64,000 nt of DNA from Psychrobacillus psychrodurans (GTDB taxonomy: Bacteria > Bacillota > Bacilli > Bacillales_A > Planococcaceae): NCBI GenBank assembly GCA_900114885.1, contig FOUN01000001.1, forward strand, positions 434,001-498,000, given 5' to 3'. Made by a program: the position numbers and the translations under genes. Below the pieces are notes generated by a model that ran no database searches, had not been told where the DNA came from, and was given only the letters and a program-made list of their open reading frames with translations. Positions 48,708-63,869 of this stretch are shown here, one piece after another. How positions within the stretch are numbered: position 1 is the stretch's first letter; each line of letters begins with the position of its first letter.

Positions 48708-48766
48708 TTGATTTTTCAGAAAACTATACATATAATTGTTTTAAATACATGTTATATACAGGTGTT
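48708..48766 (+). promoter_or_regulatory. Sigma-A-like promoter and palindromic operator 1 of the polysaccharide locus
   Basis: The -35 TTGATT (48708-48713) and consensus -10 TATAAT (48731-48736) are 17 bp apart. A 23-bp site (48744-48766: AATACATGT, TAT, ATACAGGTGTT) covers the expected start point. It matches operator 3 at 60037 in 20 of 23 positions. A second TATAAT occurs at 48770. Best guess for the binder is the GntR-SBP protein at 55358. Confidence 0.72.
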
Positions 48767-48845: not shown

Positions 48846-48868
48846 TATACATGTAATTTACTTGTATA
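48846..48868 (+). promoter_or_regulatory. Palindromic operator 2 in the leader of the polysaccharide locus
   Basis: TATACATGTAA-T-TTACTTGTATA, arms of 11 bp with one mismatch, matching operator 3 in 19 of 23 positions. It lies about 100 bp downstream of operator 1 and 12 bp before the ribosome site of the first gene, suited to looping or roadblock repression. Confidence 0.68.
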
Positions 48869-48896: not shown

Positions 48897-50579
48897 ATGA
48901 AAATGGCTAAAATTGGTGTTGTTTTTGATGATATGGATGCGGAGTTAGAGTGGTCTAAGAAGAAAAACCTTTTCGAGTATTTTATATTTGAAATTCTTGA
49001 TCATTTTAGAATCCCATATGAAAAACTAGATGTAACGGATAAGTATAATTCATTTGACGTGTTGATTGTGAGTCACATCCGAGATAGTGAAGAAGCGGGC
49101 AGCAAAATATTAGAATATATACACGCTGGTGGGACTGTCGTTTCTTATGGGGGATTGGACTCTATACGAAAGAAACTAGGTTTTTCAAACAAGCTTGCGT
49201 CTCAAAAGGGTTATGCAGATTTATCTGCCTTTTTAAACCAACATACCCCTTTACGTTTCCTAGATGCCGAGCCTTGGACGCATGAAACTGATTTAGACGT
49301 AACAGAATTTGGTGCTGTAGCTGATGAGGCAAAAACATGGCAGGGAGTATCTGCATTACAGCAAATAAAGTATGGTTCTGGAACACTTGAACGCTGGTCA
49401 GTACCGATTCCTCAAACGATCGTTGGTTTGCAACAGGGAACGAAGCCTGTTATAGAGGATGGAATACCAGCCCCGGATGGTACGGCGAATTTAGATGAGG
49501 AAATTTTAAAGGCAGAGGATGGCTTTGAACTGGATTGGGTTCAAGATCGTGCATTTACAGAAACTGGAATGCCTTATTTCCCTCACCCATATGCTGACTT
49601 ATGGAAAGAAGTAATAATGGAACATTTATTAAAAATAGTGCTAGGAAAAGGTTTAACACTTCCCTTCTTAGACTATTGGCCAGCAAACGTACAACATGTT
49701 GCGATGATTTCCCATGATAGTGATTTAAATGTGGATGAATCAGCTCAAATGACACTAGATACGCTGAAAGCAGAAAATGTTCAATCTACCTGGTGCATGA
49801 TTGCACCCGGCTACAGTTCCTCGATATATGACCAAATAAAAAAGGATGGTCATGAAGTTGCCCTTCATTACAATGCCCTAGAGCAGGATGAAGGGGTTTG
49901 GTCAGCGGAAGCTTTTCAAACACAATTAGACTGGCTAGAAAAAACGACAAATACAAACCATACTGTATCTAATAAAAATCACTATACACGCTTTGAGGGC
50001 TGGGGAGAGTTATACACTTGGTGTGAAAACAATGGAATCCAAGTGGATCAGTCGAGAGGTCCAAGTAAAAAAGGGAATATTGGTTTTTTATTTGGCACAT
50101 GTCATCCTTATTTTCCAATTGCTTGGGCAGATGAAAAGAATAGACTATATGACGTTTTAGAAATTGGGTTTTTAACACAAGATCTAAATCACAATACATT
50201 ATCAGATGTTAGTGTCATTCAGCCATTTTTAGATGGAGTGAAGCGGGTTAATGGTGTAGCACATTTTCTGTTCCATCAATACCATATTTACCATCAGCCA
50301 AAAGTGCGAGAGGCCATTGTTCAATTAATAACAACTGCTAGAACTCAAGGATTTACCTTCTGGACTAGTAAGCAAATTAATGATTGGGAGCGTTCACGTC
50401 GTGGGCTTACAATTAATGGAATTAGTTATTCAGGAGACATTAAAGTAACTAGCCGGGATGGCGAAAATGATTTTATGCTTCTCATACCAATAGCTGAGGA
50501 TTATGCATCAGCAGATGATGAAGTAATAGTGCAACGATTTGGTGTTAATTGTAAACAAGTTCAAATGAAAAGAACCTAA
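48897..50579 (+). CDS. Two-domain protein with amidotransferase-like N-terminus and CE4-like polysaccharide deacetylase
   Basis: 560 residues from ATG with GAAGGGTGAT upstream; no signal peptide, so cytoplasmic. The N-terminal part (about 1-110) has a flavodoxin/class-I-amidotransferase-like opening (IGVVFDD, VLIVSHI, GGTVVSYGG), probably non-catalytic. The region about 255-510 looks like a NodB/CE4 barrel: MISHDSDLN in place of the usual TFDDG, then GHEVALHYNALE and later HFLFHQYHIY, which could supply metal-binding His residues. A small C-terminal domain ends the protein. Likely role: removal of acetyl or similar groups from imported saccharides. Substrate unknown; first gene of the locus. 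Confidence 0.75.
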   Translation: MKMAKIGVVFDDMDAELEWSKKKNLFEYFIFEILDHFRIPYEKLDVTDKYNSFDVLIVSHIRDSEEAGSKILEYIHAGGTVVSYGGLDSIRKKLGFSNKLASQKGYADLSAFLNQHTPLRFLDAEPWTHETDLDVTEFGAVADEAKTWQGVSALQQIKYGSGTLERWSVPIPQTIVGLQQGTKPVIEDGIPAPDGTANLDEEILKAEDGFELDWVQDRAFTETGMPYFPHPYADLWKEVIMEHLLKIVLGKGLTLPFLDYWPANVQHVAMISHDSDLNVDESAQMTLDTLKAENVQSTWCMIAPGYSSSIYDQIKKDGHEVALHYNALEQDEGVWSAEAFQTQLDWLEKTTNTNHTVSNKNHYTRFEGWGELYTWCENNGIQVDQSRGPSKKGNIGFLFGTCHPYFPIAWADEKNRLYDVLEIGFLTQDLNHNTLSDVSVIQPFLDGVKRVNGVAHFLFHQYHIYHQPKVREAIVQLITTARTQGFTFWTSKQINDWERSRRGLTINGISYSGDIKVTSRDGENDFMLLIPIAEDYASADDEVIVQRFGVNCKQVQMKRT

Positions 50580-50594
50580 TATGGGGGACTTATA

Positions 50595-51839
50595 ATGGAA
50601 GGAAATATATTAGCATTAAATGGTGGAGAAAAGGTGAAGACGACACCATTTGGTACAGGGCAACGCTTTGGGTTAGAAGAGGCAAAGGAATTACTGGAGG
50701 CACTAGAGCAAAATACATTATTTTACCATTTTGGTCATAAAGTAAAGCAGTTTTTACAGGATTTCAATAATCTTTATCAAGTAAAATACAGTGTTGCTAC
50801 TTCTTCTGGAACTGCTGCACTTCATGTCGCACTTGGAGCAGCTGGAGTTACTGCTGGAGATGAGGTTATTACAAGTCCTATTACAGACCAAGGTACAGTG
50901 GTAGGTATTCTCTACCAAAATGCCATCCCAGTCTTCGCTGATTTGGATCCTCATAGCTATACAATGACTGCTACATCAATCAAAGAAAAAATAACAGCAA
51001 AGACGAAGGCAATAATTGTTGTTCATCTTGCAGGTAACCCTTGCGATATGGACCCAATTATGGAACTTGCCAAAAAATATAACATCAAGATCGTGGAGGA
51101 TTGTGCTCAAAGTTATTTAACGACTTACAAAGGTCGATTAACAGGTACCATAGGGGATTATGGCTGCTTTAGTACTAATGATTTTAAGCATATTTCTACT
51201 GGTGACGGTGGACTGGTGACTGTAAACTCAGGAAATGAATCTGATTATTTTACAACGCATGCATTTGCAGATAAAAATTATCGAAGACAAGAAGATGCTG
51301 TTATGAAGGATATAGAATATTTAGCTCCGAATTATCGAATGACAGAGCTGCAGGGTGCGGTTGGAATTGCACAATTGAAAAAGCTTAACTGGATTTGTAC
51401 AAGACGCAATGAGTTAGGGGAAAGATTAAAGCAAGGAATCGATACTATTAAAGGAATCAATCCGATGAAAATTACCAACGAAGGCTGGTGCAGCTATTGG
51501 TTTTATATGCTCACTCTGAATCTGGAACAGTTAACGTGCTCAAGAGAGGAATTTTCAGAAGCTTTAGCAGAAGAAGGAATTCCAAACCAACCGGGTTATA
51601 TTCCAAAGGTGTTATATGCGCAGCCAATATTTCAAAAGAAACAGGCATATTTGAATAACCATTATCCATTTAATCTAGGAACCTATGACTACTCCGTAGG
51701 AAGCTGTCCAAACGCAGAGAATATTTTAGAAACGGCCATTCGATTAAATATAAGTGAGTTCTATACAGATCAAGACGTAGAAGATATGATTGTCGCGATT
51801 AATAAAGTTGCTTCATTTTATAGCAAATCAATTTCATAA
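50595..51839 (+). CDS. DegT/DnrJ/EryC1-family PLP-dependent sugar aminotransferase
   Basis: 414 residues, 15 nt after the deacetylase-like gene, GGGGGA upstream. PLP motifs: TSSGTAALHVAL (about 69-80), EDCAQSYL and Schiff-base Lys K198 in STNDFKHISTGDGG. It is distant from the PglE-like enzyme at 22934. Placement in a catabolic locus is unusual for this mostly biosynthetic family; it may remove or exchange an amino group of an imported amino sugar. The last codons TCA ATT TCA TAA (S-I-S-stop) belong to the terminal repeat of a family-2 element. Confidence 0.88.
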   Translation: MEGNILALNGGEKVKTTPFGTGQRFGLEEAKELLEALEQNTLFYHFGHKVKQFLQDFNNLYQVKYSVATSSGTAALHVALGAAGVTAGDEVITSPITDQGTVVGILYQNAIPVFADLDPHSYTMTATSIKEKITAKTKAIIVVHLAGNPCDMDPIMELAKKYNIKIVEDCAQSYLTTYKGRLTGTIGDYGCFSTNDFKHISTGDGGLVTVNSGNESDYFTTHAFADKNYRRQEDAVMKDIEYLAPNYRMTELQGAVGIAQLKKLNWICTRRNELGERLKQGIDTIKGINPMKITNEGWCSYWFYMLTLNLEQLTCSREEFSEALAEEGIPNQPGYIPKVLYAQPIFQKKQAYLNNHYPFNLGTYDYSVGSCPNAENILETAIRLNISEFYTDQDVEDMIVAINKVASFYSKSIS

Positions 51840-52392: not shown

Positions 52393-54210
52393 GTGCATAA
52401 AAACCTATTTACAGACTATGGAATTCCAGTTTCCGCAGAGGAAGAAAGAACAGCTGCTTTATGTAGAAATGAGAAGGGTGACTGCAGGTTTGTTATTGCT
52501 GCCAAAGGATTTGTTGTTATTGTTAATCTTGAAAATGGTCATATAAAACAAGTGTTTTTTCCTGATAATAACGATGAATATCCTTATTCCTCGTTTAGTA
52601 GCGATGGATTATTCTACACTGGTGCTGCAAATATGTTCATGGTATTGGACCCTTTTTTAGAGCAATTCATTTATTACAAGATGATTGAAAACGGGGAAGA
52701 AATTGTAGGATTTAGCTTTGCGGAAGATAGAGCGCGTAATATCTATTTCACCTCGTATCCACATTGTCATTTACTCTGTTATTCGCCTCTCTCAAAAGAA
52801 ATCATCGATTATGGCAGGGTGGACTATAGCGAAAAGTATCCAGGGAGTGTGGCAGTGGATCAATCAGGTTGGGCATATATAGGAATTGGAACGGAAAGTA
52901 AAAATATAGTAGCCTTTCATCTAGAAAGAGGTTTGAAAAAAGACCTTATAATAAAATCTCAAAGACAAAAAGGCACTGGCTATATCCACTTAGGAGAAGA
53001 CGGGTTTGTATATGGACATATAGGAGAAACTAGTTCTCCACAATGGATGAAGTTTTCAAATGGAGACTTCGAATCTATAAATGTTGAAAAGGTATCTCCC
53101 TCTTTTTATACTGGTACAGGATTTCAAAGGATTCATAGGTATCAGGATGGAAATTATCATATAGAGAGATACAGCTTATCTGAGGGGCTTATTGAACTAG
53201 TTAACAGAGAAACTGCACAAACAAAAACTATACATTTTAGTTATACTTCGGACGGAGCGAAATTGTCTACTATTTATCTCGGACCAGATGATTATATTTA
53301 TGGTACATCTATGCACCCACTACAATTTTTTAGCTTTGATAGCTCCACGAAAAAAATGACTAATTTTGGTGGAGAGGTTATTGAAAAAGGAGGAGGCGGA
53401 AATATTGCTGCCTATGCCTCCTATGGGAATTTACTTATAGGCGCAGCATACGCAGGAGGGAAATTATTAGTTTTTGATACGACTAAGAAATTTAGGAGGA
53501 GCGTAAATCCGAAATTGGTTGCACAGGAAGAGAGTATTCATAGACCTCGCTGTGCAATTGCTTTAAAGGATCATGAGCATATTGTATGGGGAGGGTTTCC
53601 TGGGTATGGAATGATTGGCGGATCATTAGGTATTTATCGTATTGAAACGGAAGAAAACCATCTATTCACTCATGAAAAATTAGTTGAAAATCAAAGTACG
53701 ATTAGCCTTGGAGAATTGAGCTCCGGAGATATCCTTGGCGGAACGAGTATCGAGACACCTGGTGGAGCAGAATCACGAGAAAAAGAAGCTCGTTTATATA
53801 TATTAAATTGGGAGACCAAAAAAGTTAAAAATAGTTTTGTTCCGATAGAGGGTGCACGTGAAATTACTCAACTATTTATTGACAAGTATGACTGTGCCCA
53901 CTGTCTTACCGATCAAAGTACTTACTTCGTTTGCGATCCATATACGGAACAGATACTATTCCAAATAGATTTATCCAACTGGGGCCAAACTGTTCGAAAT
54001 TGTTTTAGTTATGATTTACAAACTAACACGCTCTACTGTCTTCTTAGTCATACTTTACTCAGTGTAGAGATACAAGGGAAACTTTACGTAGAACCTAAGG
54101 TAGTTCATACACTACCAATTGACGCTACCAGTGGTATTGTTCAGAAGGATAGCCGAATTTACTATGGTAGTGGAAGTCATTTATTCAGTATTCAAATTGG
54201 GGAGGGATGA
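52393..54210 (+). CDS. Large propeller-like cytoplasmic protein of unknown function
   Basis: 605 residues from GTG with AAGGAGGG upstream; no signal peptide or membrane helix. About a dozen repeating strand blocks of the type AVDQSGWAYIGIG, LGEDGFVYGHIG, LGPDDYIYGTS and FDSSTKKMTNFGG suggest one or two beta-propellers of the NHL/YncE/PQQ-like kind. Family unclear to me. It is coupled to the next gene by a 4-nt or near overlap. In this context it may be a sugar lyase, epimerase or carbohydrate-binding scaffold; I cannot choose from sequence. Confidence 0.75.
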   Translation: MHKNLFTDYGIPVSAEEERTAALCRNEKGDCRFVIAAKGFVVIVNLENGHIKQVFFPDNNDEYPYSSFSSDGLFYTGAANMFMVLDPFLEQFIYYKMIENGEEIVGFSFAEDRARNIYFTSYPHCHLLCYSPLSKEIIDYGRVDYSEKYPGSVAVDQSGWAYIGIGTESKNIVAFHLERGLKKDLIIKSQRQKGTGYIHLGEDGFVYGHIGETSSPQWMKFSNGDFESINVEKVSPSFYTGTGFQRIHRYQDGNYHIERYSLSEGLIELVNRETAQTKTIHFSYTSDGAKLSTIYLGPDDYIYGTSMHPLQFFSFDSSTKKMTNFGGEVIEKGGGGNIAAYASYGNLLIGAAYAGGKLLVFDTTKKFRRSVNPKLVAQEESIHRPRCAIALKDHEHIVWGGFPGYGMIGGSLGIYRIETEENHLFTHEKLVENQSTISLGELSSGDILGGTSIETPGGAESREKEARLYILNWETKKVKNSFVPIEGAREITQLFIDKYDCAHCLTDQSTYFVCDPYTEQILFQIDLSNWGQTVRNCFSYDLQTNTLYCLLSHTLLSVEIQGKLYVEPKVVHTLPIDATSGIVQKDSRIYYGSGSHLFSIQIGEG

Positions 54211-54215
54211 AGACC

Positions 54216-55277
54216 ATGTATATATTAAAAGAAATCGAAAAAAATGGACCTCCACCATTGTTGCATAATGTAAGCGATATGAAAGAATGGCATGAGAAAA
54301 GATCTACGATTATGCAGAACTGGCTAGATTGTATAGGTGGTCTTCCTCCACTAGTTAAAACGAGTATGAAGATAAACTACTGGGAAATTCATACCGGTTA
54401 TTACCTGATCAACATCTGTTATTCCACGGTTTACAAGGACTGGGTACCAGCGAACCTTTTAGTTCCTAAAGTTAGTGGAGAAGAAAACATTGCATCCAAA
54501 AGTGATGTACTTCGACTATTGAACTCAGCTAATCGGGAGCAATTTCGGGCAGTTCTTGCTCTCCATCCAACTAGTGATAGTGGAAAGGAAGACATAAGTA
54601 CAGCAACAGGTAGGAAAAATAGACAATACGGATTGGAGCTTGTTAATAGAGGATATGTTGTTTTAGCTCCAGATACGATAACTGCAGGAGATCGAGTATT
54701 AAAGAATGAACAGCCATTTCAAACAGCAGCATTTTATAAAAGTCACCCAAATTGGTCAGCAGTTGCTAAGATGATTGTTGATCACAGGCAGGGGATTAGC
54801 TTGTTGGAGGACCTAAGTATAGTAGACACCTCCAAAATTGGAGCAATTGGACATTCGTTAGGCGGGTATAATAGCTTCTTTCTAGCAGGAGTCGACAGTA
54901 GGGTTAAAGCGGTAGTTTGTAGTTGTGGATTTTCACTTTTTGCTCAAGATCCTGAGAAACATCGCTGGGGCAGAAGAGATTGGTTCAGTCATATACCTAA
55001 GATTAGTGATTATATCAATGAAGGTATCGTCCCGTTTGAGTTCACTGAAATTGCTGCTCTAGTTGCTCCAACGCCTTTATTCATGTGGATGGGGCAAAAT
55101 GACAGCATATTTCCTCATTGGGAACCGGCAGCAAAAGGCTTTTCTGAACTTAACTCCTTATATGAATGGCTGGAACAAGAGGGGAAATTTCAATCTTTAA
55201 TAGGGAACTCTGGACATGACTTTCCATCTGAAATTCGCCAAAACGCCTATACTTTTCTAGATAAATGGTTGAGCTAA
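54216..55277 (+). CDS. Alpha/beta hydrolase (acetyl-esterase/dienelactone hydrolase-like)
   Basis: ATG 54216 lies 9 nt after GGGGAGGG; ATG 54207 touches that site and is less likely. 353 residues, no signal peptide. Nucleophile elbow GAIGHSLGGYNSFF, acid WMGQNDSIF and His in GNSGHDFP form the Ser-Asp-His triad. Similar proteins (AXE1-like, abhydrolase_7) remove acetyl or other acyl esters from saccharides. Together with the CE4-like protein it points to a heavily acylated substrate, handled inside the cell. Confidence 0.86.
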   Translation: MYILKEIEKNGPPPLLHNVSDMKEWHEKRSTIMQNWLDCIGGLPPLVKTSMKINYWEIHTGYYLINICYSTVYKDWVPANLLVPKVSGEENIASKSDVLRLLNSANREQFRAVLALHPTSDSGKEDISTATGRKNRQYGLELVNRGYVVLAPDTITAGDRVLKNEQPFQTAAFYKSHPNWSAVAKMIVDHRQGISLLEDLSIVDTSKIGAIGHSLGGYNSFFLAGVDSRVKAVVCSCGFSLFAQDPEKHRWGRRDWFSHIPKISDYINEGIVPFEFTEIAALVAPTPLFMWMGQNDSIFPHWEPAAKGFSELNSLYEWLEQEGKFQSLIGNSGHDFPSEIRQNAYTFLDKWLS

Positions 55278-55357
55278 AGTAGTCCTTCAAGTTTACATTG
55301 CAAAATATGCTATTCTAATTAAAAGTAGAGCAATCATTTAGTAGGGAGTTGTGACAA

Positions 55358-56788
55358 TTGCTAAAACGCAAAAGTGTATTTGAAAATCGCTATAACAAGT
55401 TTATTCATGAATTAAAAGAAGAAATTATCTCAGGGAAGATAAAACCTGGTGAATTCATTCTTCCAGAAAACACATTAAGTAAAGTGTATGAATTAAGCAG
55501 GGTTTCCATTAGGAAGGCATTGGCAGAGCTCGTAGAGGAAGGTCTAATTGAGAAGATACCTGGAAAAGGTAATCGAGTAACTATTCCAAATGATACACAA
55601 AAACAAACTATTACACTTGGTTGGTTTTCAAATTCTTATGAGATTGAAATTATACGAAAAATTATCAAACGTTTCGAGCAACTCAACCCGTTCACAAAGG
55701 TAAATCTACAAATACTACCTAATAGTCAGTATATATATAATCTGACACAATCCTTAAAGCATGATAATGGACCAGATGTATTTATCGTATCTGATTATCA
55801 TTTTCGAGAGTTAATGGAGTCGAATTCTTTAGATATGCTAGAACCATTCTTACCAGAACATGTTGACATAGAAAAGGATAGCTATAAGCAAGTGTTTGAT
55901 ATGTTCACATATAATCAGACGGTACCTGTTACGCCATTTGTATTTTCACCAGTGATGATCTGCTATAATCGACGAATGTTTGAAGAAGCAGGAATTTCAA
56001 AGAACTTCAAAATGGAAAACTGGGATGACTTGTTAGAGTTATCAGCACGTACAACAAAGGGATTACAAAGTGACAGTATTATTAAAGAATATGGCTTTTG
56101 TTTTTCATCTTCTACGAATCGGTGGCCGGTGTTTCTGTTGCAAAACAAAGGATTGTTTATGGCAGAGGACCGCTCTAAATCAGTAATGAACAGAAAAGAG
56201 AATATAGAAGCATTGAATTACTGTGGTGATTTAATGTATAAGCATCAAGTATCGCCTATCTTCTCTCACGGGAGTAATGAGTTAGCAGAAAATCTTTTTA
56301 TGCGAGAAGGGGCAGCAATGATTTTGACTACCTATTATTTTATGAATGAATTTAGAGATCATAAGATTAAATGGGACGTCTTACCGCCTCCTCAAAATGA
56401 AACGCCGGGAACACTACTCTTGGGTGGTGCTTTAGGTATTAGTGCAAATAGCAAAATTAAAGAGGCAGCACAAGCACTTGTTAGCTTTATGGTAAGTACT
56501 GAAGCACAAACATTGCTCAAGCAAAATGGATGTACTATTCCGATGCTTCGCATAGTTGCAGAGGATAATAATCTTCTGCAGCCAGGAGTTCATCCGGAAC
56601 AATATAATGCTTTTAAAGAAGTAATGGGAACATCCAAGACGATTAGGGATCTTGATCTGACAATAGAGGAGTTTGAACTAATCGAACGAGAGATGCAATT
56701 TTTCTGGGCCAATATGGAAAAAGCAGAGGATACATGTAAACGAATAGAAGAGCTTCTTAATTTAAAACAAGCAACATATAACGTTTAA
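55358..56788 (+). CDS. GntR-type regulator fused to an extracellular-solute-binding-protein domain
   Basis: 476 residues from TTG with GGGAG 9 nt upstream. Residues about 8-78 are a GntR winged helix: GKIKPGEFILPENTLSKVYELSR is read as KPGEFILPENTL, then VSIRKALAELVEEGLIEKIPGKGNRV as VSIRKALAEL and EKIPGKGNRV. From about 85 to 460 the protein is a family-1 sugar-binding protein like those of ABC importers (FEQLNPFTKVNLQI, DVFIVSDYHF, PVMICYNRRMFEEAGI, LLLGGALGISANSKIKEAAQALVSFM in part). There is no signal peptide or lipobox, so the binding domain is cytoplasmic and probably acts as the ligand sensor. It sits amid the genes it likely controls; three related palindromes lie upstream of them. 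Confidence 0.93.
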   Translation: MLKRKSVFENRYNKFIHELKEEIISGKIKPGEFILPENTLSKVYELSRVSIRKALAELVEEGLIEKIPGKGNRVTIPNDTQKQTITLGWFSNSYEIEIIRKIIKRFEQLNPFTKVNLQILPNSQYIYNLTQSLKHDNGPDVFIVSDYHFRELMESNSLDMLEPFLPEHVDIEKDSYKQVFDMFTYNQTVPVTPFVFSPVMICYNRRMFEEAGISKNFKMENWDDLLELSARTTKGLQSDSIIKEYGFCFSSSTNRWPVFLLQNKGLFMAEDRSKSVMNRKENIEALNYCGDLMYKHQVSPIFSHGSNELAENLFMREGAAMILTTYYFMNEFRDHKIKWDVLPPPQNETPGTLLLGGALGISANSKIKEAAQALVSFMVSTEAQTLLKQNGCTIPMLRIVAEDNNLLQPGVHPEQYNAFKEVMGTSKTIRDLDLTIEEFELIEREMQFFWANMEKAEDTCKRIEELLNLKQATYNV

Positions 56789-56814
56789 AACGTTATTCAA
56801 GGGGTGTACTTGTG

Positions 56815-59085
56815 ATGAAATTTGCTCAACATCTTAAGGGATTAAAGCCACATCCTCGAATTTTATTTAATGACGAGGAACTAAAAGAAATGAAAACAAG
56901 AGTGGCAGATAAGAAACTGGAAAGCAGCATTGATTTTAACAATTTGTGGTATGAAATACTGGAATTAGCAGAATCATACATAGCCGAAAAAGAGTTTACG
57001 GTCGTCTATCCAAGTTGCTCTGTTCAACTAACTATTCCTTTGCCATTAATACAATTAGAGCCTGTTGGAGATCCACCAGGATATATAGATTATCCTTTTT
57101 GGACGATGTATTCTCGAGCTATTGAAGAAAGAATCCGTGTTTTATCCTTTGCTTATGGAATAACAAAGGATAAAAGGTTTGCTGAAAAAGTAAAGGAGTA
57201 CCTCCTTGCACTATCTTCGTTTACAAGATGGTTTGAATTTCCGCTACGAGGTGCGGAAGGTAATTTAAGTAATGCGCATTTTACAATAGGTGCAGCTATT
57301 GGATATGATGCAATTTTACATACTTTATCCAGCACCGAGAAAGATATGATTAAACATGCTATTTTGACAAAAGGTTTACAGCCTTTCCGTATAGATTTTA
57401 ATAATCATGATAGTCATAATATTATTGCATCGAAGCAAGTAGCGATGCTTATCGGATCCCTAGCCATCTTAGATAGTGATTGTAAGGACGAAGTGGAACC
57501 ATTCATCTTCAACTCCTGTATTTATATAAGCAATTACTTAAATAGTAGGCTAATGGATCCGGACATTGAAGGGCTATTGTATTTAAATGTTGCTGCAAGG
57601 CATATTTTAATGGCAGTAGATACGTACCATCGTTCAACAGGAAATAATGAATTTCTCCAGCATTCATATTTTAGTTTTCTTCCTGATCTATTCATCTACT
57701 CACTTGGGACTGGTGGAAAGGTGAGCTTTGTAAACTTTTCAGATTCATTTTATAGCTTGGATATTTCTTATCTTATGTCGATACTTGCATCTAAAAACCA
57801 AAATCGTATTGCAAGCTGGTATATGAATAAATTCTCTGGAAGTCATTTGGAAACGTTGCTTCATACGAATAATCTACCTGCGCCTTTAGATCCAGAAAAA
57901 TACTATGGAAATAGGTGCGCCAATATTTTTTCTACGATAGGTTGGGCTTCATTAAGAAGTGGGTGGAAGGATAATGATCATCTATTAGCTTTCAATTCAA
58001 GCCAGTCCGCAAAGAATCATAATCATTTTGATCAAAACAATTTTATATTACATGTTGCAGGAGAATGGCTAATATCCAATCCAGGTTATCAGGATTATGT
58101 AGAAGGGCCAAGGAGAGATTTTACGATTGGGACAATAGGGCATAACAGTATGCTTGTTAACAATAAAGGACAATCTCAATTAGGAAAAAGTAAATTTGTA
58201 GACTGGTATTCATCTGAATACTATTCTTTTGTTAGCGGAGAAGCAGCTGGTGCTTATGGCAAGAGTATTTCACAATGGGAGCGAAAGATAGTACATATCG
58301 ATAATAGCTATTATCTTGTTATAGATAAAGTTGTTAAAGAGGATAAGGCTACCGTACTTAGCTTTCTTTTCCATACAACAGCACAAATATATGCAGGAGA
58401 TAAAAATTTACTGCCAGGAGAGAAGATAGAAGAAACGCATATCACATTCGTTGGAAACAACGTTTCTGCTTCCATTTACAATTGCTATCCAAAAGATATA
58501 AAGATAAGTGTAGAACAACATAAGGGAGCAGAGGAGTATGGCTCATATCTACAGATAGTGCCACAGGAAAAAGAACAGCTGCAATATTTAATAACAATGC
58601 TTGTTCCTGAAGCTTCAATAAACGAATTTGCTTATACAGTAAATAGAGTAGAGTCACAATTTCATATAGAGATAGCTCGTCAAGGCATTACGGATCATAT
58701 TCTTGTTAATGAAAATAGAGATTCTGTGTGGCAAACATCCTCTAATGGAGAAATTGGTCTTCAAGGAGAACAGAGCTGGATTTCATTTCAGAACGATGAC
58801 CGCAAGCTAAGTAAGTTTTCTGTAGTAAATGGGAGCTGTTTGAAAGTACAAAGTGATTATATCTTTCAATCGTCTGAGGAAATGAATATCTCTGCTCAAT
58901 TTAACGACATAGGAGCCAAAATACAACTTGAACTTCAAAAGAATACTCAGATTTCACTGAAAACTGCTCAACCGACAATTCTATTAGTTAATAGTGAAAA
59001 GCATTTGATAAACTATCAAATTGCCCAGGAAATGCTTGAATTATATTTGGAGCAAGGATTATATGAAATCGAACTATTCATTTAA
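56815..59085 (+). CDS. Intracellular heparinase II/III-type polysaccharide lyase
   Basis: ATG 56815 is favoured over GTG 56812 by spacing to AAGGGGTG. 756 residues, no signal peptide. N-terminal alpha/alpha toroid (about 1-370) starts with HPRILFNDEELKEMK and has the conserved NNHDSHNIIASKQ region; the beta-sheet heparinase II/III domain (about 380-750) has LRSGWKDND, NHNHFDQNNF (near 401) and IGHNSM. These match PL12/15/17/21-type lyases. It would cleave imported uronate-containing oligosaccharides by beta-elimination, giving unsaturated uronate for KduI/KduD. Substrate could be a GAG-like, alginate-like or other polyuronide. Confidence 0.88.
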   Translation: MKFAQHLKGLKPHPRILFNDEELKEMKTRVADKKLESSIDFNNLWYEILELAESYIAEKEFTVVYPSCSVQLTIPLPLIQLEPVGDPPGYIDYPFWTMYSRAIEERIRVLSFAYGITKDKRFAEKVKEYLLALSSFTRWFEFPLRGAEGNLSNAHFTIGAAIGYDAILHTLSSTEKDMIKHAILTKGLQPFRIDFNNHDSHNIIASKQVAMLIGSLAILDSDCKDEVEPFIFNSCIYISNYLNSRLMDPDIEGLLYLNVAARHILMAVDTYHRSTGNNEFLQHSYFSFLPDLFIYSLGTGGKVSFVNFSDSFYSLDISYLMSILASKNQNRIASWYMNKFSGSHLETLLHTNNLPAPLDPEKYYGNRCANIFSTIGWASLRSGWKDNDHLLAFNSSQSAKNHNHFDQNNFILHVAGEWLISNPGYQDYVEGPRRDFTIGTIGHNSMLVNNKGQSQLGKSKFVDWYSSEYYSFVSGEAAGAYGKSISQWERKIVHIDNSYYLVIDKVVKEDKATVLSFLFHTTAQIYAGDKNLLPGEKIEETHITFVGNNVSASIYNCYPKDIKISVEQHKGAEEYGSYLQIVPQEKEQLQYLITMLVPEASINEFAYTVNRVESQFHIEIARQGITDHILVNENRDSVWQTSSNGEIGLQGEQSWISFQNDDRKLSKFSVVNGSCLKVQSDYIFQSSEEMNISAQFNDIGAKIQLELQKNTQISLKTAQPTILLVNSEKHLINYQIAQEMLELYLEQGLYEIELFI

Positions 59086-59152
59086 AGTAGTGAAAATTTG
59101 TATTTAAATAACTGAATTTTCAATAAAAAATGCATTTAAAGAGGTGGTTTAC

Positions 59153-59794
59153 ATGGAACTTACCGGATGGAGAGGTTCATTATATCATTATATGGATTGG
59201 GCATTAAAGCTTGCATATTTAAATATTCTTTGGTTGATAGGAATAGTAATTGGTGCTGGAATTGCAGGTTTTTTTCCATCAACCGTAGCAATGTTCTCTG
59301 TACTCAGAAAGTGGGCACAAGATGAAGGTGATGAACTTAAGGTATTCGCTCATTTTAAAAACGAATATAAAAGGGAATTCTTAAAGTCTAATAAATACGG
59401 CTATTCATGGGCGCTACTTGGATTAATATTGTACGTGGATTTACAGTTTTTTCGTGGTATTCCTACTATCTGGGCATTAATAGTTTCTTTATTCTTTTTT
59501 ATACTTGGTGCTATTTATATAGTTGCTTTACTTTATGCATTTCCAGTTTATGTTCAATATAAACTGACCTTAAAGCAGTATTTTAGAAACTGCTTACTCA
59601 TTGTTCTTTCTAATCCCTTGTTTTCTGTCCTAATGGTTTTAGGATTCTATTTTCCATATTATTTAATGATTAAAATTCCGGGATTACTACCGTTTTTCGG
59701 AGGCAGCCTTATAAGCCTAGTGTTAATGATGATTTCTAACAAAATGTTTACGAACTTAGAGAAAAATAAAAAGGCACATGAGTCAATTTCATAA
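59153..59794 (+). CDS. YesL-like DUF624 membrane protein
   Basis: ATG 59153 lies 5 nt after AAGAGGTGG; 213 residues with five or six transmembrane helices. DUF624 hallmarks: LAYLNILWLIG, GFFPSTVAMFSVLRKW and FKNEYKREFLKSN. YesL homologues accompany rhamnogalacturonan and other Lpl/Yte-type sugar importers and are thought to assist them; the mechanism is unknown. The final codons GAG TCA ATT TCA TAA lie in the terminal repeat of a family-2 element. Confidence 0.9.
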   Translation: MELTGWRGSLYHYMDWALKLAYLNILWLIGIVIGAGIAGFFPSTVAMFSVLRKWAQDEGDELKVFAHFKNEYKREFLKSNKYGYSWALLGLILYVDLQFFRGIPTIWALIVSLFFFILGAIYIVALLYAFPVYVQYKLTLKQYFRNCLLIVLSNPLFSVLMVLGFYFPYYLMIKIPGLLPFFGGSLISLVLMMISNKMFTNLEKNKKAHESIS

Positions 59795-60005: not shown

Positions 60006-60059
60006 TTGAATTATTGTAAAATTTAAATTATTATTAAATACATGTAATATACATGTATT
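60006..60059 (+). promoter_or_regulatory. Sigma-A-like promoter and palindromic operator 3 of the importer genes
   Basis: The -35 TTGAAT (60006-60011) and -10 TATTAT (60029-60034) are 17 bp apart. Operator AATACATGTA-ATA-TACATGTATT (60037-60059) has perfect 10-bp arms and covers the expected start point, the same geometry as operator 1 at 48744. The importer genes therefore look like a separate transcript under the same regulator. Confidence 0.77.
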
Positions 60060-60108: not shown

Positions 60109-61092
60109 ATTGAAACTAAAAACAAAAAAATTGATACGTTGGATTCAACATTAGCCGTATCAAATAATATCCCGACTAAAAGAAAAAAGAAGTCATTAAA
60201 AAATAAATTATGGCGAGATCGCTATTTGTTACTACTAATCTTACCAGGAATTTTATATTTTCTTATATATCGCTATATACCAATGGCAGGAATTCTTCTA
60301 GCATTTAAGGATTATAGCCCGTTTCGAGGGTTTGCAGATAGTCCATGGGTCGGATTAAAATACTTTAAGTTAATTTTTGAAGATGCTGAAGTTATTCAAG
60401 TTATTTGGAATACACTACAAATCTCAATGTTACAAATCTTTTTTGCCTTCCCTATCTCTATTGTACTTGCCTTAATGCTTAATGAAATTAGAAACCAAGT
60501 ATATAAGAAATTTCTTCAATCTATTGTTTATTTACCTCATTTCTTATCCTGGGTAGTCGTGGTTGGGATAACTGTTATTTTTCTTAGAAGTGAAGGCTTA
60601 ATCAACAATGTTCTAGTGAATTTTTTAGAAATCAATCCAATCCCATTTTTAACTGATCCAGCTTTGTTTAAGCCAATAGTTATTATCCAAGTTATCTGGA
60701 AGGAATCGGGCTGGGGCACAATTCTTTTTTTAGCGGCATTGTCTGGAATTAGTCCGCATTTATATGAGGCGGCTGTAATAGACGGAGCTAGTCGTTTGAG
60801 ACAGATGTGGCATATAACTTTACCAGCACTAAAGAGTACGATTGTTATCTTATTAATCCTTCGTTTAGGTAATGTAATGGATAGTGGTTTCGAGCAAATC
60901 TTTTTAATGTTGAATCCTTTCAATATGGAAACAGGAAATGTCTTAGACACCTATGTGTACTTTAAAGGGATTCAGCAGGCTAATTTTAGTTTCGCTACAG
61001 CTGTAGGACTTTTTAAAGGAATTATTGGTTTAATACTTGTCGTTCTTGCCAATAGACTTGCGAAAAAATTTGGAGAAGATGGCTTATATTAA
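60109..61092 (+). CDS. ABC sugar transporter permease (LplB/YteP-like), possible ATT start
   Basis: The strong ribosome site AAAGGGGAG (60093-60101) lies 7 nt before an in-frame ATT (60109); the first canonical in-frame codon is TTG 60139, 37 nt from that site with no site of its own. From ATT the protein has 327 residues. It has a basic cytoplasmic N-terminus and six transmembrane helices, with the Lpl-type opening RYLLLLILPGILYFLIYRYIPM, read as LLILPGILYFLIYRYIPM, and the EAA loop YEAAVIDGASRLRQMWHITLP. No ATPase gene is nearby; such importers usually share an MsmX-type ATPase encoded elsewhere. Confidence 0.9.
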   Translation: METKNKKIDTLDSTLAVSNNIPTKRKKKSLKNKLWRDRYLLLLILPGILYFLIYRYIPMAGILLAFKDYSPFRGFADSPWVGLKYFKLIFEDAEVIQVIWNTLQISMLQIFFAFPISIVLALMLNEIRNQVYKKFLQSIVYLPHFLSWVVVVGITVIFLRSEGLINNVLVNFLEINPIPFLTDPALFKPIVIIQVIWKESGWGTILFLAALSGISPHLYEAAVIDGASRLRQMWHITLPALKSTIVILLILRLGNVMDSGFEQIFLMLNPFNMETGNVLDTYVYFKGIQQANFSFATAVGLFKGIIGLILVVLANRLAKKFGEDGLY

Positions 61093-61309: not shown

Positions 61310-62185
61310 ATGTTTAAAGCTACTGGTGGCGAAAGGGTAATGGAAATCTTTAATAACATATTCTTGTTATTAATAGCTGTTACGATGCTATTTCCCTTTT
61401 TATACATTTTTTCCGTTTCATTTTCAAGTGTGAGCGATGTACTCAATAGTGATTTCCTTTTATGGCCAAAGGAATGGGTGACAGATGCCTATACGTATAT
61501 TTTAGGGTCCGATCAATTTATTCGTTCTCTATGGGTGACAGTTTATATCACTGTGGTAGGGACATTTGTTAATCTAGTTTTTACATCCACGATGGCTTAC
61601 TCTTTAACAAGAAATATTATTGGGCAACGGTTAATCTTGTTTTTAGTGTTATTTACTGTTCTATTTTCAGCTGGAATGATTCCGACTTATATTATTGTAA
61701 AAGAAACTGGTTTATTGAATTCGTTGTGGGCACTAATCATACCTGTGGCAATCAGTCCATTTAATTTAATCATCATGACTCAATTTTTTAAAGGGATCCC
61801 TGAGGAACTAACAGAGGCTGCTATTATTGATGGAGCCAATGATATCCAAATTTTTTCTAAAGTGATCTTACCTTTATCAAAGCCAGCGTTGGCAGCATTT
61901 GGTCTGTTTTATGCAGTGGGCCATTGGAATAGCTATTTCTCAGGAGTTCTCTACTTGAATGACCCCTCAAAGTGGCCGATACAAGTTATTTTGCGACAAA
62001 TTGTCATTGTAAATGAACCAAATGCAGCGTTAGGTGGTCATGCAGCAATGGTAGAAGCATTACCGCCTCCAGAAACGGTTCAGATGGCTGCTATTTTATT
62101 GGCAACCTTACCAATACTTATTGTTTATCCGTTCTTACAAAAACATTTTGCAAAAGGAGTGATGCTTGGATCTGTAAAAGGATAG
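61310..62185 (+). CDS. ABC sugar transporter permease (LplC/YtcP-like)
   Basis: 291 residues from ATG with TAAGGAGG upstream. Six transmembrane helices; family features are LFPFLYIFSVSFSSVSDVL, the loop LTEAAIIDGANDIQIFSKVILPL (EAA motif; read as EAAIIDGAND) and the C-terminal HFAKGVMLGSVKG typical of LplC. Pairs with the permease at 60109 across a 217-bp structured gap. Confidence 0.93.
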   Translation: MFKATGGERVMEIFNNIFLLLIAVTMLFPFLYIFSVSFSSVSDVLNSDFLLWPKEWVTDAYTYILGSDQFIRSLWVTVYITVVGTFVNLVFTSTMAYSLTRNIIGQRLILFLVLFTVLFSAGMIPTYIIVKETGLLNSLWALIIPVAISPFNLIIMTQFFKGIPEELTEAAIIDGANDIQIFSKVILPLSKPALAAFGLFYAVGHWNSYFSGVLYLNDPSKWPIQVILRQIVIVNEPNAALGGHAAMVEALPPPETVQMAAILLATLPILIVYPFLQKHFAKGVMLGSVKG

Positions 62186-62249: not shown

Positions 62250-63869
62250 GTGAAAAATAAGCACCTAATGATTAGCTTTCTACTTCTTTTCCTTAGTTTT
62301 ATGTTAGTAGCTTGTACGGATGAAAATACAGATGAGAAAGATACAACCGACAAAGATAATGAAACTGCAGGAGAAAAAGCTCCAAATGCACAGGTTGATC
62401 CATTTGATCATAGTGAGAAATATACAATCACGGGGATGACATTCCGTTTCGGTGATCCACCTCCATTAAAAAGTCCTGGTCTAGATATGATAAATGAGCG
62501 ATTTAACGTAGATTATAAACCAGAGATTATACCTCAAGGTGATTATGTTGAAAAATCTTCTGCCATTGTAGCATCAGGTTCTATGCCAGATTTAGTTGGA
62601 TTCCAAGCTGGCGATACGCGTTTTTATCAATGGGCAGAAGATGGAGCATTTCTACCCCTAGATGACTATTTATCACATTACGAAACATTAGGGAATATTC
62701 CAGACTATATTTACAATTCTTTTAAAGTAGACGGAAAGGTATATGGAATTCCGCGTTATTCCAATCCATATCCTGTAACACCAATTATTCGTAAGGATTG
62801 GCTCGATAAATTAGGATTGGAAGTACCAACAAACTACGAAGAGTTAGAGAAAGTTGCTATTGCATTTACAAAAGAAGATCCAGATGGGAATGGAAAGGCA
62901 GATACGTATGGAGTAGCTATTGGAGAAAATATTAACCCAAGCTTTAACATGGGAACATATTGGGACTTCAATGCTTGGTATCACCAAAATGATGATGGAG
63001 ATTTTATTCCAGGTATCATTTCTGATGGAAGAAAAGACTTAGTTCAATTTTTTGCTAATTTGTATAAAGAAGGCGCTATGACAAAAGACTTTGCCGTTCT
63101 TGATTGGGCGAGTACTAATAATGAGTTTTACTCCGGTAAAGCTGGAATTTTCGTAGGCGGTGTCTCCGGGATGTCACAGGAGTATTTCGATGGATTATTA
63201 TCTATTAATCCAGAAGCGAAGCTAGTAGCAATTCCTCCATTTGAAGCACCAGACAAATCGAAAGGATTCACAATGGGTTCAGGTAACTCAGGTATTCTTG
63301 CTTTAAATGCTAATCTTGCAGAAGACGAAGGGAAATTATATCGAGCATTAGAGTTAGTAGACTTTGGGAAAACTTATTTCCCGGCTGAGGAAAAAAATCC
63401 TCAAAATGCGGACTTTGACTTCTATTTAGGTAAAGAAGGAACTGGTTATAATATGGAAAATGGATTACCTGTCCAAATTCCAACGTTCTCTTCTGAAGGA
63501 CTTGCGCCATCAACCTATTTCTTGGATAACAGAGAACAGGTTCCAGAGGATGCAAATATTACGTATGCGGATAGCTATACACTACCAGAGTTGAAAGAAA
63601 TGACTGCATCATTACAAGAAATGTTTGAAACGAGCGAGTTATATGTCGATCCTTCTCATGGTGTTCTATCACAAACAAACCAAGAAAAAGGTACAGATTT
63701 ATTTCAATTCTTAATCAACGAACAATCGAAAATGATCGCTGGTCAAAGACCAATATCTGACTGGGACGCACTAGTTGAAGAGTACCTTGCAAAAGGTGGC
63801 GAAGCGATTATTAAAGAAACAAACGAAGGAATCAAATCTAAAGGATATACAGAAAGAGAATGGAAGTAA
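62250..63869 (+). CDS. ABC sugar transporter substrate-binding lipoprotein (LplA/YtcQ-like)
   Basis: 539 residues from GTG with GGAGGGG upstream. Lipobox LVAC gives Cys 22 as the lipidated residue, followed by an acidic linker (to about 50). The large two-lobed binding domain has FRFGDPPPL, SGSMPDLVGFQAGDT, YGIPRYSNPYPVTPIIRKDWL in part and DPDGNGKADTYG, the calcium-binding-like loop common in LplA proteins. The size of about 540 residues fits importers of oligosaccharides. The domain is related to the sensor half of the GntR fusion at 55358. Confidence 0.94.
   Translation: MKNKHLMISFLLLFLSFMLVACTDENTDEKDTTDKDNETAGEKAPNAQVDPFDHSEKYTITGMTFRFGDPPPLKSPGLDMINERFNVDYKPEIIPQGDYVEKSSAIVASGSMPDLVGFQAGDTRFYQWAEDGAFLPLDDYLSHYETLGNIPDYIYNSFKVDGKVYGIPRYSNPYPVTPIIRKDWLDKLGLEVPTNYEELEKVAIAFTKEDPDGNGKADTYGVAIGENINPSFNMGTYWDFNAWYHQNDDGDFIPGIISDGRKDLVQFFANLYKEGAMTKDFAVLDWASTNNEFYSGKAGIFVGGVSGMSQEYFDGLLSINPEAKLVAIPPFEAPDKSKGFTMGSGNSGILALNANLAEDEGKLYRALELVDFGKTYFPAEEKNPQNADFDFYLGKEGTGYNMENGLPVQIPTFSSEGLAPSTYFLDNREQVPEDANITYADSYTLPELKEMTASLQEMFETSELYVDPSHGVLSQTNQEKGTDLFQFLINEQSKMIAGQRPISDWDALVEEYLAKGGEAIIKETNEGIKSKGYTEREWK

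Follow-up and report, generated by a model that had tools for sequence, protein, structure and literature searches.

A GntR regulator with a family-1 solute-binding protein as predicted sensor, and its candidate operator in a Psychrobacillus gene cluster

The FadR, HutC, MocR and YtrA subfamilies make up nearly 95% of the GntR regulators (PMC4333415), in agreement with the sequence-only reading of the locus described here, which had held that most members of the family carry other effector domains. The HutC subfamily, with NagR/YvoA, DasR and TreR, has the GntR head in common with our protein; NagR blocks sugar-use genes, is released by sugar effectors and moves its DNA-binding heads upon effector binding (PMC4333415). 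AraR, from a minor GntR subfamily (PMC4333415), likewise combines a GntR head with a sugar sensor of the periplasmic-binding-protein type. The gamma-proteobacterial SgrR and DsvR also consist of an N-terminal DNA-binding domain and a C-terminal solute-binding domain and are linked to sugar metabolism (PMC13060122, a preprint). In DsvR and, by homology, in SgrR, the latter is an SBP_bac_5 domain (PMC13060122), whereas the fusion studied here joins a GntR head to SBP_bac_1. Btr/YbbB of Bacillus bears a putative importer-type (FeuA-like) binding domain as well and is encoded beside feuA (PMC3896406). Cytoplasmic sensors of the solute-binding type on DNA-binding heads are already known from SgrR and Btr. 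Btr/YbbB is an activator that senses bacillibactin inside the cell, and is built of an AraC head and a siderophore-type binding domain, in contrast to the GntR head and family-1 solute-binding protein (SBP) of the present fusion. The sensor of AraR is of type I (LacI), whereas that of the fusion is a family-1 SBP. No description of a GntR head fused to a family-1 SBP was found in searches of the open-access literature, and the available parts of the surveys PMC5882156 and PMC4494728 make no mention of a solute-binding domain on a GntR regulator; the former counts 76 companion domains for GntR, among which the fusion may be included.

We analysed a 64,000-nucleotide stretch of the Psychrobacillus psychrodurans genome, hereafter the window, in which all the features discussed lie on the + strand. 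The GntR-SBP fusion regulator is encoded at 55358..56788 in one frame of 476 aa with a TTG start, and a ribosome-binding site, GGGAG (55344..55348), is found 9 nt before the TTG, with similar leaders in six relatives. When the seven genus loci in coding orientation were compared, the window's own and six others, the start position was kept in all six others (five TTG and one ATG). Residues 12–74 (55391..55579) form the GntR winged-helix domain, matched by Pfam PF00392 at 46.2 bits against a cut-off of 27. Residues from about 84 to 476 (55607..56785) form the family-1 solute-binding domain, the predicted sensor, identified by Pfam PF01547 (SBP_bac_1), an AlphaFold2 model and Foldseek; the Pfam match scores 91.7 bits against a cut-off of 26 and runs over residues 95–384, covering profile positions 4–306 of 307. 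After the head, only SBP_bac_1, SBP_bac_8 and SBP_bac_11 were matched by Pfam up to an E-value of 0.001. Within the same limit there was no SBP_bac_5, FCD, UTRA, aminotransferase, short YtrA or LacI-type C-terminal domain, the absence of UTRA setting the protein apart from the HutC subfamily, which has that effector domain. Among the NCBIfam models, those for the trehalose repressor and HutC lead on the GntR head, all below their curated cut-offs. Judged by eye, the protein has neither export signal nor lipobox: its N-terminus is the DNA-binding head and, since the protein opens directly with it, there is no room for the export signal that takes importer binding proteins out of the cell. PADLOC gave no defence match up to E 0.001. 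The layout proposed earlier, with about 75 N-terminal residues of GntR and some 390 of SBP without a lipobox, proved right to within some ten residues, and both domains lie above the Pfam cut-offs.

The row of genes starts with a conserved cluster protein of 560 residues encoded by the first enzyme gene (48897..50579), which shows a sub-cut-off polysaccharide-deacetylase match and no PDB match up to E 0.01. It continues with a DegT/DnrJ/EryC1 aminotransferase-family protein (50595..51839), a second conserved cluster protein that was called a “propeller” by eye and has a sub-cut-off DUF6923 repeat match (52393..54210), and an alpha/beta hydrolase of the DLH / Peptidase_S9 type (54207..55277). 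The fusion gene is followed by a heparinase II/III-like protein (56812..59085; Hepar_II_III_C, with DUF4962 just below the cut-off), which weakly matches heparinase II/III-like, alginate-lyase and chondroitinase chains in the PDB, and by a DUF624 membrane protein (59144..59794). Finally, there are the ABC importer permeases 1 (60139..61092) and 2 (61310..62185) and the importer solute-binding protein (62250..63869), which is AlgQ-like and not close to the sensor domain by Pfam and sequence, and whose hydrophobic N-terminal stretch ends, by eye, in a lipobox-like LVAC. The Pfam matches of these neighbours agree with the earlier statement that the fusion gene adjoins a sugar importer. The neighbouring enzymes were also searched for a hint at the ligand, and the 48897 and 56812 proteins gave sub-cut-off and weak matches, respectively.

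The order 48897–DegT–propeller–hydrolase–regulator is kept in all eight other Bacillaceae loci (L044-L050, L063) and in 10 of the 16 orthologous loci of Paenibacillus/Cohnella (L051-L062, L064-L067), and in 18 of the 24 orthologous loci a relative of the 48897 protein has the DegT-family protein beside it. The importer is found 3' of the regulator gene row in the Bacillaceae loci and precedes it in 13 of the 16 Paenibacillus/Cohnella loci, and two permeases are present in 23/24 orthologous loci. For the more distant relatives, the DNA around each gene, which is short for some loci, contains permeases of the same type in 22 of 56 loci; in the remaining 34 an importer permease of this type was undetected with a profile that can miss other transporter types, as at L110, where the neighbours are an SBP_bac_3 protein and an ABC ATPase, a transporter type that the profile missed. 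An ordinary binding-protein frame occurs in 16 of the 34 loci without a detected permease (among them L081, L089, L092, L094, L100, L105, L112 and L113), and 21 of 25 such frames carry a lipobox-like motif, so that orphan binding proteins near GntR-SBP genes are possible. At one locus (L089:11642-14818), a hybrid histidine kinase is encoded directly downstream of the GntR-SBP gene.

The palindrome AATACATGTNNNNNACATGTATT came to light in the leaders of the first enzyme gene, which share it in the nine loci inspected. Pattern searches place three predicted operators in the window: operator 1, AATACATGTTATATACAGGTGTT, at 48744..48766; operator 2, TATACATGTAATTTACTTGTATA, at 48846..48868; and operator 3, AATACATGTAATATACATGTATT, at 60037..60059. 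With up to one mismatch, the short pattern ACATGT-N5-ACATGT occurs three times in the window, at 48747, 48849 and 60040, and two further window sites with two mismatches are both outside the cluster. In the 4.0 Mb genome the site at 60040, in operator 3, is the sole exact match and there are 10 one-mismatch sites, two of them at the first enzyme gene; at up to two mismatches the pattern is no commoner genome-wide than the control (166 vs 199). A longer pattern with up to three mismatches has three matches in the window, all of them the predicted operators, vs 0.65 expected, and 2 of 100 shuffles of the window also reach three. The core TGT-N5-ACA fits the GT...AC form taken by GntR sites, with a spacing of 5 nt here as against the 4 nt that mostly separate GT and AC in HutC sites (PMC4494728).

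A dyad search run afterwards on five orthologous loci returned TACATGT-N5-ACATGTA as the top dyad in all five. With the window included, all nine Bacillaceae loci have the site upstream of the first enzyme gene at up to one mismatch; upstream of permease 1 it is present in 9/9 at up to two mismatches and in 7/9 at up to one. Among 3000 random stretches of 370 nt, drawn from all 24 loci examined with the true sites included, 43 contain a site at up to one mismatch and 73 at up to two. In four of the loci (L044, L046, L048 and L049) a third unit, a gene whose large product is probably secreted, carries the palindrome with 0 to 2 mismatches; a related large-protein gene at L063 has no palindrome there. 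Such proteins, their secretion judged by eye, are encoded at L044:782-3643, L046:680-3607 and L049:862-3732, and none was seen beside the cluster of the window. At genus scale, ATACATGTN5ACATGTAT with up to one mismatch gives 18 sites in 19 genomes, none more than 10 kb from the regulator gene; seven of the 10 genomes that carry the regulator have such sites, and none of the nine that lack it does. The three regulator-bearing genomes that lack a site at up to one mismatch are G096, G104 and G087; L047 and L050, whose coordinates are those of G096 and G104, have ACAGGT variants at the same places. At two mismatches the pattern is background in nearly all genus genomes, the control pattern being as frequent.

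Regarding more remote relatives, the site, with up to two mismatches allowed, precedes permease 1 in only 4 of 15 Paenibacillus/Cohnella orthologous loci and the first enzyme gene in only 1 of 11. Another 72, more distant, loci yielded six one-mismatch sites, while nine control patterns gave 0 to 5 matches, exact ones included. Four of the six are no more than 250 nt upstream of a fused gene: those at L083 and L084, which are near relatives, at L030, of the same tree branch, and at L033, which is outside the tree. Dyad searches in eight other groups of paralogues found shared dyads in some, for example far upstream in all four L079-group loci, and no shared dyad in others; among the eight, only the L083/L084 pair has a related dyad just upstream of the (second) fused gene. 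The idea that fused genes are generally preceded by a TGTA-N3-TACA core was rejected: just 3 of the 106 stretches upstream of such genes contain it, two being from near relatives, which amounts to no family-wide rule. The palindrome AATACATGTNNNNNACATGTATT is probably the operator of the GntR-SBP regulator, judging from its sequence and distribution, and it is in this proposed operator that the novelty of the present work lies. The earlier proposal that the protein is a regulator is strengthened by a promoter-associated palindrome that co-occurs with the fusion gene in the genus.

A promoter for the enzyme-regulator operon is predicted at 48708..48736 (TTGATT-17-TATAAT), ending 7 nt before operator 1, and one for the importer at 60006..60034 (TTGAAT-17-TATTAT), ending 2 nt before operator 3; operator 2, at 48846, is further downstream of the promoter than operator 1. 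Promoter-like matches number 2 vs 2.9 expected by chance in the enzyme-operon stretch and 4 vs 2.8 in the importer stretch and, since they are about as frequent in shuffles, the argument rests on repeated placement: by eye, in the window and the relatives inspected, the sites either overlap the −10 element or lie 0 to about 20 nt past it. Such a location at or shortly beyond the start point speaks for repression. We consider it likely that the fusion is a ligand-released transcriptional repressor of a polysaccharide-use cluster, a reading in which binding, dimerisation, repression and ligand are all inferred, and in which our confidence is slightly lowered by the fact that most Paenibacillus orthologues have no clear site. 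The GntR head would bind the palindrome AATACATGTNNNNNACATGTATT as a dimer, at sites that overlap or directly follow the starts of the presumed operons from 48897 and 60139. An oligosaccharide, the putative ligand, would enter the cytoplasm via the cluster's own importer and bind the cleft of the C-terminal solute-binding domain. Closure of the lobes may then move the DNA-binding heads and free the promoters, a coupling proposed by likeness to NagR. The regulator gene is within the row that its product would control, so the regulator would also limit itself.

The same palindromes, which are well supported in themselves, could serve an activator, the sugar-bound protein recruiting or positioning RNA polymerase there. 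Some GntR-family proteins are dual regulators, such as NagR of B. thuringiensis (PMC6141813); however, sites on the −10 element or within some 20 nt after it, as placed by eye, are in a position typical of repression, and we regard activation as unlikely. The palindrome could also be owned by another regulator, encoded elsewhere, with the GntR-SBP protein acting elsewhere or via protein contacts, since the association is one of sequence only and most Paenibacillus orthologues have no clear site. Against this, a Pfam scan of nine neighbouring proteins found no second regulator, sites at up to one mismatch are confined to the genus genomes with the regulator, and related sites are directly upstream of the fused genes in L030, L083, L084 and L033, which together make such a division of roles improbable. 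Repression by the GntR-SBP protein is thus the reading that we retain.

AlphaFold2, run on a 60-row alignment (the window and 59 of the 80 relatives described below), gave a model with a mean pLDDT of 91.2 and a pTM of 0.87. The best solved match in Foldseek is Lmo0181 with cycloalternan (5f7v; TM by target 0.85), followed by AbnE with arabinobiose (6rjy; 0.81) and MalE3 with maltose (1eu8; 0.83). These family-1 importer proteins share the fold over nearly the whole SBP domain, the two-lobe fold is complete at high model confidence, and Lmo0181 and AbnE are the nearest solved relatives of the sensor half. The model and its Foldseek matches to importer SBPs, together with PF01547, uphold the view that a GntR head here carries a complete SBP fold in the cytoplasm as its probable sensor.

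To this was added a maximum-likelihood tree of 104 SBP halves (62 fusions and 42 labelled SBP), obtained from 185 SBP-type frames of a profile search, of which 169 passed the length filters and 104 were left after removal of near-copies (75% identity or more); among those outside the tree are the broken pieces L019, L066 and L067 and the short L033. All fusions group in a single clade (support 100/100), where L065, a frameshifted fusion with its head in another frame, is the sole row labelled SBP. A single fusion event explains the sampled proteins, as far as their sequences go; the fused query served to collect fusions and SBPs alike, and broader sampling could alter the single-clade result. 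Regarding the origin of the sensor, the profile of the fused SBP halves does not pick up the 62250 importer protein at E 1e-5, and by sequence AlgQ2 and AlgQ1 are the solved proteins closest to it, which indicates that the sensor was not derived from the present binding protein of the neighbouring importer. The idea that the cell reused an importer's protein therefore holds in that an importer-type protein became a sensor and fails as to the source, since the 62250 protein is AlgQ-like and without a profile match; the tree, in which the fused halves keep to a clade of their own, speaks against reuse from the neighbour too.

Compared with 41 ordinary SBPs, the 63 fusions share a signature of N254, R255, W256, P257, F259-Q262, Y326 and N330, each at 90% or more. 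R255 is present in 63/63 fusions and in about 12% of the ordinary SBPs; Q262 is also found in 61% of the latter. By comparison with maltose-binding protein, we take two stretches of the signature to line the sugar cleft. The signature fits a working but specialised cleft, and R255 might read an acidic group of the ligand. Conserved residues that belong to the family itself and, Q262 excepted, are mostly missing in ordinary SBPs would also agree with a changed role of the cleft, in which the domain has ceased to bind a ligand and serves only dimerisation or structure. Such a loss is very improbable given the complete two-lobe fold predicted with high confidence, the two importer permeases at 23 of the 24 orthologous loci and the location of the conserved residues, presumably at the sugar cleft as in maltose-binding protein. 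We thus keep the SBP domain as the predicted sensor.

Of the 19 genus genomes, 10 carry the fusion at 73–100% identity, counting that of the window. Whole-genome protein and profile searches scored the best 8 or the best 4 candidates per genome, so that their counts are lower bounds, as are those of the class and phylum samples, for which four were scored. In the class sample, at least 87 of 398 genomes have any match at E 1e-18 and for at least 22 the match extends over the GntR head; G403 and G251, both among the 22, have the fusion split over two frames. In the phylum sample, at least 28 of 398 genomes match at E 1e-40 and at least three match the near-full profile including the head, all three of the same class and with at least 590 bits; none of the remaining matches begins before profile position 48 or exceeds 182 bits. 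Among named genomes 226 relatives were found, and the best 80 of the 226, which occur in Bacillaceae and Paenibacillaceae, were examined (28–92% identity): in 80/80 the alignment begins no later than query residue 15 and extends at least to residue 455, and the hosts are mostly Paenibacillus, together with Bacillus, Psychrobacillus, Ornithinibacillus, Priestia, Cohnella and a few MAGs. Some genomes have several copies, P. mesophilus and P. ginsengarvi each contributing five of these 80 loci. The GntR winged helix is N-terminal in 60/60 aligned members, which were picked as fusions. Three of the 80 (L065, L066 and L067) are copies broken by a frameshift or stop. Nothing else was found that might favour an assembly error or a recent chance fusion of two genes, which has next to no probability in view of the single frame, the 10/19 genus genomes, the 80/80 relatives from many species aligned over both domains and the single clade with 100/100 support. 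The fusion is one intact protein of a widespread family and not an artefact, which also answers the worry about a frameshift raised with the first reading.

A relative on a plasmid record (NZ_CP033045.1, L141:3196-4614) is annotated as “extracellular solute-binding protein” though it aligns over both domains; it is 25.8% identical over 99% of the query and has an importer beside its gene. Regulators of the GntR-SBP family may be hidden under this name. Tentatively, and with more doubt than for the repressor, the GntR-SBP proteins could be regarded as a separate subfamily of one origin, in which an importer-type SBP became an intracellular sensor, with several copies per Paenibacillaceae genome, an ACATGT-N5-ACATGT code in some distant branches, and members concealed by their annotation as extracellular proteins. 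The invariant R255 by the expected cleft would perhaps be for acidic sugars, and an intact oligosaccharide, not a breakdown product, would be sensed.

For annotators, one GntR-SBP relative publicly named an extracellular protein is a warning. The proposed operator renders the regulator idea directly testable. A complete family-1 solute-binding protein inside the cell would add a type of sensor to a large family of regulators and, since this fold binds many different oligosaccharides, gene switches that respond to sugars could readily be drawn from the GntR-SBP family.
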